Shown here piece by piece: positions 33,369 through 36,925 of a stretch of DNA of 54,049 nucleotides. Every line of letters begins with the position of its first letter. The first letter of the stretch is position 1. The translations under genes and the position numbers were made by a program. The stretch is taken from NCBI RefSeq assembly GCF_026241755.1, contig NZ_JAPJDA010000026.1, forward strand, positions 1-54,049. The letters run 5' to 3'. This DNA comes from Salinimicrobium profundisediminis. Its GTDB lineage: Bacteria > Bacteroidota > Bacteroidia > Flavobacteriales > Flavobacteriaceae. Under the pieces are notes generated by a model. The model made no database searches, was not told the DNA's origin, and saw nothing but the letters and a program-made list of their open reading frames with translations.

Positions 33369-34445
33369 CTAAAAAACGTCGGAATTCTCTTTCAGTTTTT
33401 CTGTGTTTTCTACTAGTTGTAATTCGTCGAGGATCTTCTGGATATCTCCGTTGATGATGTTCCCAAGATCGTAAAGGGTAAGACCAATTCGGTGATCGGT
33501 TACACGGCCCTGTGCATAATTGTAAGTTCGGATCTTTGCACTCCTGTCTCCGCTGGAAACCATAGAGTTTCTCTTGGCTGCATCGGCTTCCATTTTCTTG
33601 GCCAGCTCCTGCTCATAAAGCCTTGACCTCAACACGCGGAATGCCTTTTCCTTGTTCTTATGCTGGGATTTTTGATCCTGGCACTGCGCCACCAATCCTG
33701 TAGGGATGTGAGTTAAACGCACCGCGGAATAAGTGGTGTTCACCGACTGCCCACCTGGTCCTGAAGAACAGAAATAGTCAATTCGCACCTCTTTTGGATC
33801 GATCTCCACATCAAATTCTTCGGCTTCTGGTAATACCATAACCGTAGCGGCAGAGGTATGTACCCGCCCCTGGGTTTCAGTTTGCGGTACCCGTTGCACA
33901 CGGTGTACCCCGGCTTCAAATTTTAATGTTCCGTAGACATCTTCGCCGGTCACGTCAAAAATGATTTCTTTGAATCCGCCGCTGGTACCCTCGCTAAAAT
34001 CAACAATCTGGTGTTTCCAGCCTTTGCTTTCAATATATTTGGTGTACATGCGATAAAGGTCTCCTGCAAAAATACTGGCCTCGTCCCCACCTGTACCGGC
34101 ACGAATCTCCATCACCACGTTCTTGGCGTCTTCGGGATCTTTTGGCACAAGCATCATCCTTATCTTCTCCTCCATTCCGGGAATCTGCTCTTTGGCTTCT
34201 TCGAGTTGAAGTTTGGCCATATCTGTCATCTCGGGATCACTGCCATCGGCGATGATCTCTTCGGCCTCTTTTTTATTCTCGATAAGGCTCACGTACTCGG
34301 CGCGAACGTCCATCAATTTCTTTAACTCCTTGTACTCTTTATTTAGCTCTATATAGCGCTTTTGATCGGCAATCACGTCGGGCTGAATGATCAGGTCATT
34401 CACCTCGTCAAAACGCTGCTTCACAATATTCAATTTCTCGATCAT
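33369..34445 (-). CDS. prfA: Peptide chain release factor 1
   Basis: The 358-residue factor reads UAA and UAG and triggers peptide release. The GGQ motif is in [20 protein letters not shown], the PCRF domain has [20 protein letters not shown], and the anticodon-like loop is around [15 protein letters not shown]. Length and the C-terminal helix match RF1 rather than RF2. It ends at the terminator that precedes pyrF. Confidence 0.97.
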
Positions 34446-34623
34446 AACATCTCCTTAAAGCAGCAAATTTACGATAAATCTGTCGGATTTCTGAAAAGGA
34501 TTTGTGCTGGAGATAAAAATTATTCAGCAAGGACATGTTCGATATTGCGAAGATATTTCTCGCAGAGTCTGCAAAGGAAAAAGCGCATAGATCGCAAAGT
34601 AATTCTAAATGATGCTTCTTTTG

Positions 34624-34631
34624 TATCTTTA
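34624..34631 (+). promoter_or_regulatory. Putative -7 box for msrA
   Basis: TATCTTTA ends 5 bp before the first possible ATG (34637) and 14 bp before the second (34646). If real, it favours the second start. A similar TACTTTAGAATAATG string precedes the GxxExxY gene. Confidence 0.35.
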
Positions 34632-34636
34632 GAACA

Positions 34637-35125
34637 ATGAGTAAAATGAACAAAATAGGCCTGGGCGGAGGTTGTCACTGGTGTACCGAAGCAGTTTTCC
34701 AGTCGGTGGAAGGCGTGCTGAAGGTGGAGCAGGGATATATTGCTTCTGAAGCTCCAGCCGATACATTCTCTGAAGCTGTCATTGTGCATTACCTTCCAAA
34801 AATGACAAATTTGGAGCGGCTTTTAGAGGTGCATCTTCATACGCACAATTCCACTTCAAATCATTCGTTTCGGGATAAATATCGTAGTGCTGTTTACTTT
34901 TTCTCTTCGGAAGATGAAGTGGAAATTAGAAAGATCCTGAAAAAACTTCAGCAGCAATTTAAGGAACTCCTGGTGACGCAGGTATTGGCGTTCAATGAAT
35001 TTAAGGCTTCGAGGGAGCAGATACAGGATTACTACCGAAAAAATCCGGATGCTCCTTTTTGTAGGAGATATATTGAACCGAAGTTGGAGGTTCTGGACAA
35101 AATTTCTCGCAAAGGGCGCAATTAA
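34637..35125 (+). CDS. msrA: Peptide-methionine (S)-S-oxide reductase, divergent MsrA
   Basis: The 162-residue protein repairs Met-S-oxide if active. The catalytic Cys is in GLGGGCHWCTEAVFQSVEGV (classical GCFWG becomes GCHWC), and the later conserved block is HLHTHNSTSNHSFRDKYRSA with the Tyr-Arg-Ser. This two-Cys, His-containing variant is typical of a flavobacterial subgroup. A start at Met4 is possible. The last codons (SRKGRN) run into repetitive CTCGCAAAG-type sequence, and the stop codon touches the left inverted repeat of the GxxExxY cassette. Confidence 0.85.
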   Translation: MSKMNKIGLGGGCHWCTEAVFQSVEGVLKVEQGYIASEAPADTFSEAVIVHYLPKMTNLERLLEVHLHTHNSTSNHSFRDKYRSAVYFFSSEDEVEIRKILKKLQQQFKELLVTQVLAFNEFKASREQIQDYYRKNPDAPFCRRYIEPKLEVLDKISRKGRN

Positions 35126-35648
35126 AATTTTCACACGAAGAGCACGAAGCAAAATAAATGAAGATCACAAAGAAAGGCAGTTAAGAAGAAACTGTTGTAC
35201 TTTAGAATAATGAAGGAACAGGATTTATCATACCGGATCATTGGAATTGCACTTGAGCTTCACAAAATTTTGGGGCCGGGCCTGTTAGAATCGACTTATG
35301 AAAATGCTTTAGCTTATGACTTACGTGCTGCCGGTTTGGAAGTGAAACAACAACATCCCATGCCATTTTTCTATAAAGAAATTAAAATGGATGTAGGCTA
35401 CAGAATTGACCTACTGGTTGAGAGTAAAATAATCATTGAAGTAAAATCTCTAGAAAATCTTGCTCCTGTACATTTTGCACAATTACTCACTTATTTAAAA
35501 TTTTCGGAATTAAAAGTGGGTCTACTAATAAATTTCAATACAAAAATGCTCAAAGATGGCATTCACCGAATAGTTAATTGAAAAAATCAATTTTTCCTTC
35601 AATTTCTCTGTGCCCTTATTTAATCTTATTTTGCTTCGTGTGAAAATT
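35124..35648. mobile_element. Inverted-repeat-bounded GxxExxY cassette
   Basis: The gene between msrA and purM is flanked by imperfect inverted repeats. AATTTTCACACGAAG at 35126-35140 is the exact complement of CTTCGTGTGAAAATT at 35634-35648. Inside both arms CAAAATAA and then CACA(A/G)AGAAA recur in the same order; a 9-nt AGCACGAAG duplication in the left arm accounts for the length difference. The unit is about 525 bp and carries a single ORF. No target-site duplication is evident to me. Confidence 0.6.
35210..35581 (+). CDS. GxxExxY protein, PD-(D/E)XK nuclease-like
   Basis: The 123-residue protein has the family signature G24-P-G-x-x-E27-x-x-Y30 in KILGPGLLESTYENAL and a PD-(D/E)XK-type core: Asp67 in YRIDLLVES followed by Glu77-x-Lys79 in IIIEVKSLE. 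The catalytic residues expected of this nuclease-like fold are therefore intact, although no activity is established for the family. The ATG at 35210 was chosen; a TTG five codons earlier is possible. It is the only gene of the inverted-repeat cassette between msrA and purM. Confidence 0.9.
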   Translation: MKEQDLSYRIIGIALELHKILGPGLLESTYENALAYDLRAAGLEVKQQHPMPFFYKEIKMDVGYRIDLLVESKIIIEVKSLENLAPVHFAQLLTYLKFSELKVGLLINFNTKMLKDGIHRIVN

Positions 35649-35657
35649 GAAAACCTA

Positions 35658-36836
35658 TTAGTATTCAAACTCCCCAAACTCACTTCTAATTGTCAATTTT
35701 TTCTCTTCTGAAGCTTCTACCCTACCCACTATTTTGGCATCTACGTTGAATGATTTTGAAATTTCAATAATATCTTCAGCTACTTTTTCATCAACATATA
35801 ATTCCATTCTATGTCCCATATTGAACACCTGGTACATCTCCTTCCACTCGGTTTTGCTTTCCTGCTGAATGAGTTTGAATAAAGGCGGAACTTCAAATAG
35901 ATTGTCTTTGACTACATGAACGTTATCTACAAAATGCAGGACTTTGGTTTGTGCGCCCCCGCTGCAATGAACTATGCCAAAAATGTCATTTTTAGAGTAC
36001 TTTTCCAGGATCTTCTTAATTACCGGAGCATATGTTCTTGTAGGAGAAAGCACAAGTTTACCAGCATCCAGCGGACTGCCCTCAACTGCATCGGTGAGGT
36101 CTTTTGAGCCGCTGTAGATCAATTCAGCGGGAATTGAAGCATCAAAACTTTCAGGATATTTTTGAGCTAAACTCTTTCCGAAGACATCGTGACGTGCAGA
36201 GGTGAGTCCGTTACTGCCCATGCCACCGTTGTACTCTTTTTCGTAAGTTGCCTGTCCAAAAGAAGCCAGTCCAACGATCACATTTCCCGGTTTAATGTTT
36301 GCATTGTCTATCACATCACTCCGCTTCATGCGTGCAGTCACGGTAGAATCTACAATAATGGTGCGTACAAGATCACCAACATCGGCAGTTTCGCCGCCGG
36401 TAGAATGGATTTTTATTCCGAAGCCTTTGAGATCATGGAGCAATTCTTCGGTACCATTGATAATGGCAGAGATCACTTCACCCGGCACCAGGTTCTTGTT
36501 ACGACCAATTGTAGAAGAAAGCATGATGTTATCTACCGCACCAACGCACAGCAGGTCATCAATATTCATGATCAATGCATCTTGGGCTATTCCTTTCCAC
36601 ACCTCAAGATCCCCTGTTTCTTTCCAGTACATATAGGCCAGGGAAGACTTTGTACCAGCGCCATCGGCGTGCATGATGAGGCAATAATCTTCATCACCTG
36701 TGAGATGATCGGGCACAATTTTGCAAAATGCTTTTGGAAAAAGCCCTTTATTGACATTCTTAATGGCATTGTGCACGTCTTCTTTCCCGGCAGAAACTCC
36801 GCGGCCGGCATATCTTTTACTTATTTCCTGGCTCAT
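35658..36836 (-). CDS. purM: PurM-type AIR synthase
   Basis: The 392-residue protein starts at MSQEISKRYAGRGVSAGKED; a 26-codon extension upstream has no family similarity. It is the Bacteroidota form of phosphoribosylformylglycinamidine cyclo-ligase, which closes the imidazole ring of AIR using ATP. Family blocks are HADGAGTKSSLAYMYW, MNIDDLLCVGAVDNIM, HSTGGETADVGDLVRT and the C-terminal MGHRMELYV. It is about 45 residues longer than E. coli PurM. One dispersed palindrome (35979-35993) is encoded in YSKNDIFGIVHC. Its stop is 10 bp from the cassette's right repeat. Confidence 0.93.
   Translation of the reverse strand: MSQEISKRYAGRGVSAGKEDVHNAIKNVNKGLFPKAFCKIVPDHLTGDEDYCLIMHADGAGTKSSLAYMYWKETGDLEVWKGIAQDALIMNIDDLLCVGAVDNIMLSSTIGRNKNLVPGEVISAIINGTEELLHDLKGFGIKIHSTGGETADVGDLVRTIIVDSTVTARMKRSDVIDNANIKPGNVIVGLASFGQATYEKEYNGGMGSNGLTSARHDVFGKSLAQKYPESFDASIPAELIYSGSKDLTDAVEGSPLDAGKLVLSPTRTYAPVIKKILEKYSKNDIFGIVHCSGGAQTKVLHFVDNVHVVKDNLFEVPPLFKLIQQESKTEWKEMYQVFNMGHRMELYVDEKVAEDIIEISKSFNVDAKIVGRVEASEEKKLTIRSEFGEFEY
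35979..35993. repeat. Dispersed palindrome, copy 8 (inside purM)
   Basis: AAAAATG-T-CATTTTT, perfect 7+1+7, centre 35986, in coding sequence. Confidence 0.7.
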
Positions 36837-36897
36837 GTAGATAGATTTACGGTCAAAGATAATTAGTTTAGTTTTTTTGATCGTAGATTTATATAAT

Positions 36898-36925
36898 AAA
36901 AAAGGCACTCCCATTGGAAGTGCCT
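36898..36925 (-). terminator. Terminator of glnN
   Basis: AGGCACT at 36903-36909 pairs with AGTGCCT at 36919-36925, and a run of T follows on the minus strand. It lies between the glnN stop and the purM start. Confidence 0.85.

Follow-up and report, generated by a model that had tools for sequence, protein, structure and literature searches.

GxxExxY genes between matched inverted arrays of 7-bp units: a probable protein partner for a common family of wandering repeats

Introduction

Between the convergent genes msrA and purM of Salinimicrobium profundisediminis, a GxxExxY gene is enclosed by an inverted repeat, within a stretch of 54,049 nucleotides that was analysed as a whole and is referred to here as the window. 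An earlier note on this DNA had proposed that gene and repeats form a possible minimal mobile cassette, comparable to REP-associated systems. The locus raises the question of whether the two belong together, and what the protein may do to the repeats. We think it probable that the GxxExxY protein is the partner that a common family of wandering repeats has lacked, a reading founded on sequence comparison and favoured because the gene with matching arms, and gene-free arms as well, recur across many bacteria.

Methods

GxxExxY loci were gathered in three batches (30 + 80 + 60), and the resulting 170 loci were reduced to 167 upon removal of gene copies more than 95% identical, and to 161 when both flanks were required; nearly all of these loci with full flanks are from Bacteroidota. 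Units were defined by the consensus CRCNRAK and a tandem pair by a distance of 8-11 bp start to start, scored in a near zone within 160 bp of the gene and a control zone 700-860 bp away. The protein tree, with few columns and many weak forks, comprises 143 loci and the window; to be included, a locus needed at least three units and a gene free of internal stops. Ten loci with internal stops were judged by eye and left unmended.

Results

The features of the region are compiled in Table 1, where the arm ends of the window cassette were judged against 81 two-armed loci. The earlier note's perfect 15-bp inverted repeat (35126-35140 and 35634-35648) was recovered, and its imperfect continuation proved real: local alignment of the 87-bp left gap with the 76-bp right gap scores 23, a value matched by 2 of 5000 dinucleotide-preserving shuffle pairs. 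The left arm reads TTTTCACACGAAG-AG-CACGAAG-CAAAATAA...CACAAAGAAA, and the right arm, as reverse complement, TTTTCACACGAAG-CAAAATAA...CACAGAGAAA. Two points go beyond the earlier note, namely the composition of the arms from 7-bp units (CACGAAG, CACGAAG and CACAAAG on the left, CACGAAG and CACAGAG on the right) and a second, different array outside the left arm. As had been described, the unit fills the gap between the two genes, the left arm starting directly after the msrA stop codon and the right arm terminating 10 bp short of the purM ORF end at 35658; its length compares with a median of 464 bp between the outermost units of the 81 two-armed loci. Folded separately as single-stranded DNA, the window arms gave no hairpin signal (z -0.03 and 0.61), and a search of 34400-35800 against Rfam gave nothing at E 0.1 or better. 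Part of a CGCAAAG-type array (35108-35125) supplies the codons for the MsrA C-terminus (..SRKGRN).

Table 1. Coordinates of the cassette and its surroundings in the window
Feature	Position	Strand	Description
degenerate gene-free units	34561..34599	+	CGCAGAG ... CGCAAAG; prfA-msrA gap
msrA	34637..35125	+	stop codon 35123-35125; convergent with purM
partial array of another type	35108..35121	+	CGCAAAGGGCGCAA; outside left arm, within msrA 3' end
whole cassette	35126..35648	+	523 bp, fills msrA-purM gap
left arm	35126..35172	+	AATTTTCA + CACGAAG (35134-35140), CACGAAG (35143-35149), CACAAAG (35166-35172), inward-pointing
GxxExxY gene	35210..35581	+	123 aa; ATG at 35210, stop 35579-35581; TIGR04256 / PF13366 PDDEXK_3; D67, E77, K79, Q91, Y95 conserved
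right arm, inverted	35606..35648	-	CTCTGTG (35606-35612), CTTCGTG (35634-35640), then TGAAAATT
purM ORF	35658..36914	-	convergent with msrA

The assignment of the gene as GxxExxY, PD-(D/E)XK-like, was confirmed by matches to TIGR04256 (E 4.7e-43, 146.2 bits vs a cut-off of 35) and, in a Pfam scan, to PF13366 (PDDEXK_3; E 4.6e-41), with no transposase family found in that scan. The G-x-x-E-x-x-Y motif (G24, E27, Y30) is kept in 158, 159 and 158 of 159 proteins. The catalytic D ... E-x-K of the PD-(D/E)XK superfamily is present as D67, E77 and K79, the residues whose conservation had been pointed out before, in 159, 158 and 159 of the 159 aligned proteins; Q91 and Y95, too, are each retained in at least 158. 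Compared with its copy in the congener G004, the window gene has a dN/dS of 0.037; towards G011, synonymous sites are saturated. The weak Cas4 matches of the window protein (Cas4b, E 0.0045; Cas_Cas4, E 0.044, below cut-off) and its Q91-x3-Y95, the Q-x3-Y motif being that of RecB-like enzymes, may point to a RecB/Cas4-type nuclease. The second protein of the own genome, L002, gave no Cas4-type match, and a sequence search returned no relatives of solved structure (best E 0.52). An anti-phage system was considered and rejected, the matches being only weakly Cas4-like. A residue-base code at position 122 (I with CAC, V with CGC) was likewise set aside as a lead only: all nine informative pairs, of 19 independent ones, fit (p 0.004 before correction, 81 tests), and the window itself (V, CAC) is an exception.

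The TIGR04256 family was present in 149 of 296 sampled genomes of the phylum Bacteroidota, with up to 11 copies per genome. A search of the own genome, as the earlier note had advised, uncovered the second GxxExxY gene (L002), also located between inverted units of related type, CACGAATACACGAAT and its near inverse. We then counted all 7-mers, with no preset motif, in inward orientation within 120 bp of the gene, using far flanks as control. CGCAAAG was found at 66 of 162 loci vs 1 of 152 far flanks, CACAGAG at 58 vs 5, CGCAGAG at 53 vs 1 and CACAAAG at 45 vs 3. Inward tandem units occur on at least one side of 136 of the 161 loci and on both sides of 79, as compared with 3 and 0 of 151 far flanks, and 25 of the 161 have no tandem pair at either side. 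In an alignment test, 65 of 161 loci lie above the 95th percentile of mismatched pairs, and 48 do likewise in direct orientation, because the arms often hold hairpins of their own. The anticipated finding of several copies between the same repeats was thus borne out in part: arms recur, but they are the same only within a subfamily, units and spacing varying between loci.

Comparison of the loci bears out a cassette anatomy with sharp ends, matching ends and an arm type that follows the protein lineage. Unit sequence and spacing, which vary even within one genome, agree between the ends of one locus. For 104 loci with at least two units on each side, the end-to-end agreement of letters reaches r 0.92, 0.81 and 0.88 at unit positions 2, 5 and 7 (0 of 2000 permutations each) and is weaker at position 4 (r 0.24, 18 of 2000). 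Within genomes, the mean difference is 0.27 between the ends of a single locus and 1.19 between ends of different loci (0 of 5000 within-genome permutations; 29 loci from 14 genomes, each contributing two or three). End matching is therefore not a property of the host genome, since the loci of one genome differ while the ends of each agree. Outermost pairs are spaced by 8, 9 or 10 bp, and in 71 of 79 loci the two ends share one spacing, where 31 are expected (0 of 5000). Four-unit runs, present in 63 of 322 arms, are mostly symmetric, 10-11-10 being the commonest form (24 of 63), and have steps of 10.3 bp on average, close to one turn of the DNA helix; in 106 of the 322 arms no run goes beyond a single unit. 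Mapped on the protein tree, arm type requires 47 changes vs 85 with shuffled labels (0 of 200 shuffles as low), and spacing, for 69 loci, 11 vs 28.7 (lowest of 100 shuffles, 23). The inverted symmetry extends five bases beyond the outermost unit (52, 62, 55, 47 and 44 of 81 loci matching) and then drops to 21-32 of 81, marking sharp ends. Among these 81 two-armed loci no fixed target was found, and compared with mismatched pairs no target-site duplication stands out at any offset or length. The largest excesses are 2-base matches (13 vs 6.3 and 15 vs 8.8 of 81) at offsets that misfit the ends; old insertions could conceal a duplication.

Across genomes, comparison also ties the abundance of arms to the gene. 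Counted with one pattern, gene-borne arms included and relatedness between genomes uncorrected, CRCARAGNNCRCARAG gave 1701 matches in the 149 gene-bearing genomes (reversed control 50) and 117 in the 147 gene-less ones (reversed control 66). At least 10 matches were present in 42 of 149 genomes with the gene vs 2 of 147 without, four of the 147 having 4 to 12; the highest count in one genome is 126, and there are 3.4 matches per gene copy, for this one pattern only. Eleven gene-free stretches were chosen for close opposite-strand matches or clusters. Seven of these have arms facing each other across a short loop, with 44-95 bp between the outermost units, two (L261, L266) have arms that point outward and two (L267, L268) are mosaics. 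Of six stretches folded as single-stranded DNA, the window arms among them, L264 and L265, taken whole, form near-perfect hairpins (z about -14). The values for L258 and L260, z -1.05 and +1.09, come from stretches that left out part of their arms. In L267 (G310:C1:494250-494850), the arm pair is amplified within a tandem repeat of about 185 bp. Dense gene-free unit mosaics were seen in long intergenic stretches, with several types in L006 and L007 (G000:C90, about 133-139 kb), and again in L268 (G000:C14:56500-57000); the unit types of these three mosaics are CACAAAGCTCACGAAG, CACAGATGCACAGAT and CGCAGATTTCGCAGAT.

Turnover at fixed junctions likewise emerges from comparison. At prfA-msrA-purM, the window, G004 and G011 have CAC-type elements in the orientation of msrA, with genes 93% (G004) and 89% (G011) identical. 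G002 carries a CGC-type element in the same orientation, its gene 72% identical to that of the window, and G009 and G006 carry CGC-type elements in the opposite orientation (genes 74% and 76%). The elements of G007 and G010 are of CGCAGAT type, with genes 47% and 54% identical to the window's, the former in the prfA-msrA gap and the latter after prfA, with no msrA found; G005 has no element around prfA-msrA-purM. The nearest congener of the window is G009, as judged by Cca and msrA identity and purM score, and its element differs from the window's in orientation, type and gene. The partial array CGCAAAGGGCGCAA outside the left arm gives the impression that a CGC-type element was replaced or invaded by one of CAC type; at this place G009 carries its CGC-type element.

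The second own copy lies in the Sua5-Cca gap, where the own genome, G007, G005 and G002 have the gene with CACGAAT arms. In 12 genomes, four have the gene at this place and seven do not, the contig of G011 ending there. Five of the seven gene-less gaps keep a one-sided unit, as judged by eye, and therefore some absences are losses. Four gene-less congener gaps (L189, L191, L193, L195) contain a hairpin, GACCTNACAGG..CCTGTNAGGTC, and have a one-sided ATTCGTG-like unit before cca.

A third junction (g30) belongs to another genus of the family, probably Flavobacterium, because named Flavobacterium loci share the neighbour gene. Among the best-matching 30 of 61 genomes, 18 are occupied and 12 empty; the upstream stop codon overlaps the downstream ATG in five of the 12 empty junctions, which hold 0 or 1 unit within 230 bases. 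The contrast of empty and occupied sites that the earlier note had looked for at msrA-purM is accordingly found in a relative genus, with the msrA-purM congeners varying. In the same best 30 of 61 genomes, subfamily 1 occupies 10 junctions, including the gene remnants L308 and L317, and subfamily 2, with proteins 37-41% identical to subfamily 1, the other eight; units ending in T make up 2 of 65 around the ten subfamily-1 copies, where the remainder end in G, and 58 of 60 around the eight of subfamily 2. The downstream-gene tree for these best 30 of 61 genomes, with strong support on 7 of 27 inner branches, requires at least 10 changes between the three states. A subfamily-2 protein (L302) is identical to L002 at 52 of 108 positions and to the window protein at 41 of 109. 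L002, located in another genus and at another place, has T-ending CACGAAT arms. Arm type thus goes with the protein, not with the site, as L002 is nearer to subfamily 2 and has T-ending arms elsewhere.

Arms were found in Bacteroidota, Gemmatimonadota and Alphaproteobacteria, and more weakly in Spirochaetota. In Sphingomonas, as seen by eye, the gene has fabD and fabG as neighbours and CGCGAAG-type units around it, the right arm lying within, and encoding, the end of the annotated GxxExxY gene; S. paeninsulae and Rhizobium indigoferae have fabD-fabG without a GxxExxY gene. The Treponema copy has a single unit on each side, and the units of the Fusobacteria copy are direct, not inverted, misfitting the pattern. 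Spread by phages or plasmids was rejected, as tblastn returned 0 of 50,697 phage records and plasmid-borne relatives in 8 of 72,556 plasmid records. The 290 candidate stretches from a pattern-seeded scan of viral contigs included no relative when tested by tblastn. Five of the eight plasmid-borne relatives were examined, namely the Sphingomonas, Treponema and Fusobacteria copies described above and those of Gemmatirosa and Bernardetia, which have clear inverted arrays.

Discussion

Judged from the compared sequences, the 523-bp unit is likely to be a mobile cassette whose protein recognises its own arms, a RAYT-like design with a PD-(D/E)XK protein. The idea of a minimal mobile cassette comparable to REP-associated systems thereby gains support, and most of what had been expected in its favour was found: the repeats recur at many loci and in many genomes rather than only here, and the gene without repeats is not ancestral in all relatives. 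We infer binding, cleavage and mobilisation of the arms by the GxxExxY protein, and indeed every reaction step. The arm would be read as 7-bp units (CRCNRAK), at its most complete two pairs of equal spacing with a mean step of 10.3 bp, and the protein would most likely bind arms of its own type on a single face of the helix and cut or nick at the arms. The cassette, or a gene-free arm pair, would be copied or moved into intergenic junctions, and host replication and repair would complete the transfer without target-site duplication. The seven gene-free pairs of facing arms (44-95 bp) may then be non-autonomous derivatives, as REPs and REPINs are to RAYT transposases.

Homing, in which the nuclease would cut pre-existing gene-free arms and the gene would be copied in by recombination through the shared arms, is an unlikely alternative with some points to recommend it: the CACGAAG element of the window adjoins a partial CGCAAAG array, the prfA-msrA-purM region has been occupied repeatedly by different subfamilies, and homing endonucleases include PD-(D/E)XK enzymes. 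A recognition sequence would be expected in empty sites, but at the one junction surveyed the 12 empty copies (best 30 of 61 genomes) hold 0 or 1 unit in 230 bases, so that arms were absent beforehand or leave no trace. Furthermore, the unit type differs between neighbours at one site, and homing through shared arms would keep the type. The arms may instead be sites of a chromosome-organising or regulatory protein, with GxxExxY a self-regulating DNA binder or lapsed nuclease, the gene-free arms its regulon and horizontal transfer accounting for the spread. The mean step of the four-unit arms is indeed as for DNA binding on one face, and in the retrieved passages of a Geobacter metallireducens study tandem 7-8-mer pairs on opposite strands are read as 'global regulator binding sites' (PMC2700814). 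We nevertheless regard this as improbable, since a pure binder would not need the almost invariant D/E/K triad, and since sharp symmetric ends, occupied, empty and replaced junctions, and both orientations at one place are element-like.

That the gene is a passenger, sometimes caught between arm pairs spread by another host enzyme (a recombinase, transposase, or one of replication or repair), appears rather improbable as well. It would accommodate the lack of a target-site duplication, a protein without a known transposase family, and arm units that outnumber the gene (3.4 matches per gene copy for the one pattern). Against it, arm type tracks the protein lineage and not the genome, with differing end-matched types in one genome; two protein subfamilies have two unit types at one junction; and gene-less genomes barely exceed the reversed-pattern control (117 vs 66). 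Least of all do we expect the arms to be simple mRNA hairpins or terminators of transcription that arose separately, with a symmetry at msrA-purM due to local coincidence. Convergent genes are a fitting site and isolated hairpins could stop transcription, but end-matched types occur among 136 of 161 loci (not all independent junctions), upstream arms precede the start codon, the gene association holds across genomes and Rfam gave no match; chance or a terminator origin was ruled out by the shuffles (2 of 5000) and the recurrence across loci.

The closest known design is that of REP and RAYT. In the retrieved passages of Nunvar 2010 (PMC2817692), rayt genes invariably lie between a pair of inverted REPs that coevolve with them, the abundance of REPs correlates with the presence of rayt, and REPs also occur apart from the gene, as doublets and in other forms. 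The GxxExxY gene similarly sits between two inverted, coevolving repeats, the abundance of dispersed repeats correlates with it (one pattern; relatedness uncorrected), and gene-free arm copies exist. As far as those passages go, two differences are evident: GxxExxY is PD-(D/E)XK-like and not an IS200/IS605-type tyrosine transposase, and its arms consist of 7-bp units repeated every 8-13 bp, REPs being single palindromes headed by GT(A/G)G. The cassette is thus not a REP/RAYT member, because its enzyme is a PD-(D/E)XK protein. REPINs, in the retrieved part of Bertels and Rainey 2011 (PMC3116915), share the inverted pairs of short repeats, the hairpins and the character of miniature non-autonomous DNA, and differ in repeat sequence and in the enzyme proposed. 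With insertion sequences and MITEs the cassette shares one gene, sharp inverted ends, multiple copies, possible non-autonomous derivatives and occupied as well as empty sites; unlike these, it has no transposase family match, no target-site duplication was found, and its ends are composite with a type that varies between loci. The G. metallireducens sites, in the retrieved passages of PMC2700814, are also tandem 7-9-mers in opposite-strand pairs at variable distance (24, 21 and 8 pairs or locations), and their class 2 consensus, TCTCCGTS, is similar to a CACGGAGA unit in reverse complement; there they are read as sites of IHF/HU-type regulators, and those passages name no enclosed gene as partner.

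In the open-licence PMC literature we found no link between a GxxExxY gene and such repeats, and no mention of PDDEXK_3. The mentions of GxxExxY found there (PMC8934634, PMC12085832) do not, as far as retrieved, concern such a link, and six tandem unit strings led only to unrelated papers. TAACTGA repeats appear in the retrieved text of PMC4679880.

The link between gene and repeats provides the orphan family TIGR04256 with a testable job and the repeat family with a likely cause. If the protein moves the arms, a REP/RAYT-like system would exist on a different enzyme class. If so, modular 7-bp recognition, with natural variation among loci and a duplicate at the other end of each, would offer a data set for a protein-DNA code, and the build-up of arrays between genes and their uptake into neighbouring coding ends, as in msrA, would be explained.

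More tentatively, a PD-(D/E)XK nuclease, and no transposase, could be the dedicated mobility enzyme of the CACAGAG/CGCAAAG-type repeats and one of several unrelated single-gene systems. The arms would be read by 7-bp units one helical turn apart, and gene and gene-free hairpins would be moved with no target duplication, within a convergent class of 'one protein plus cognate repeats' that might include PF05635 with heptamer arrays and GIY-YIG with repeats of its own.

Genes of PF05635 (23S rRNA intervening-sequence protein) in the own genome also tend to lie between inverted tandem-heptamer arrays; the protein is unrelated to GxxExxY and the units, of period 7, are of other types, and these genes may represent a second, unrelated system of the same design. 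Among the 15 own-genome genes for this four-helix bundle (L033-L040, L282-L288), each locus with arrays has a heptamer of its own; 8 of the 15 score above the 95th percentile of mismatched pairs, arrays were seen by eye at several more, and L288 has none. Three of seven own-genome PF01541 matches were examined, of which L275 is without such repeats. Stand-alone GIY-YIG genes, L276 and L277 in the own genome and L059 (called GIY-YIG by eye) in the msrA-purM gap of another genus, have other short inverted repeats near both ends: CTCGACTCCGCTCG, TCACTCGAACTGACGG and TTCTCGACTGCGCTC.
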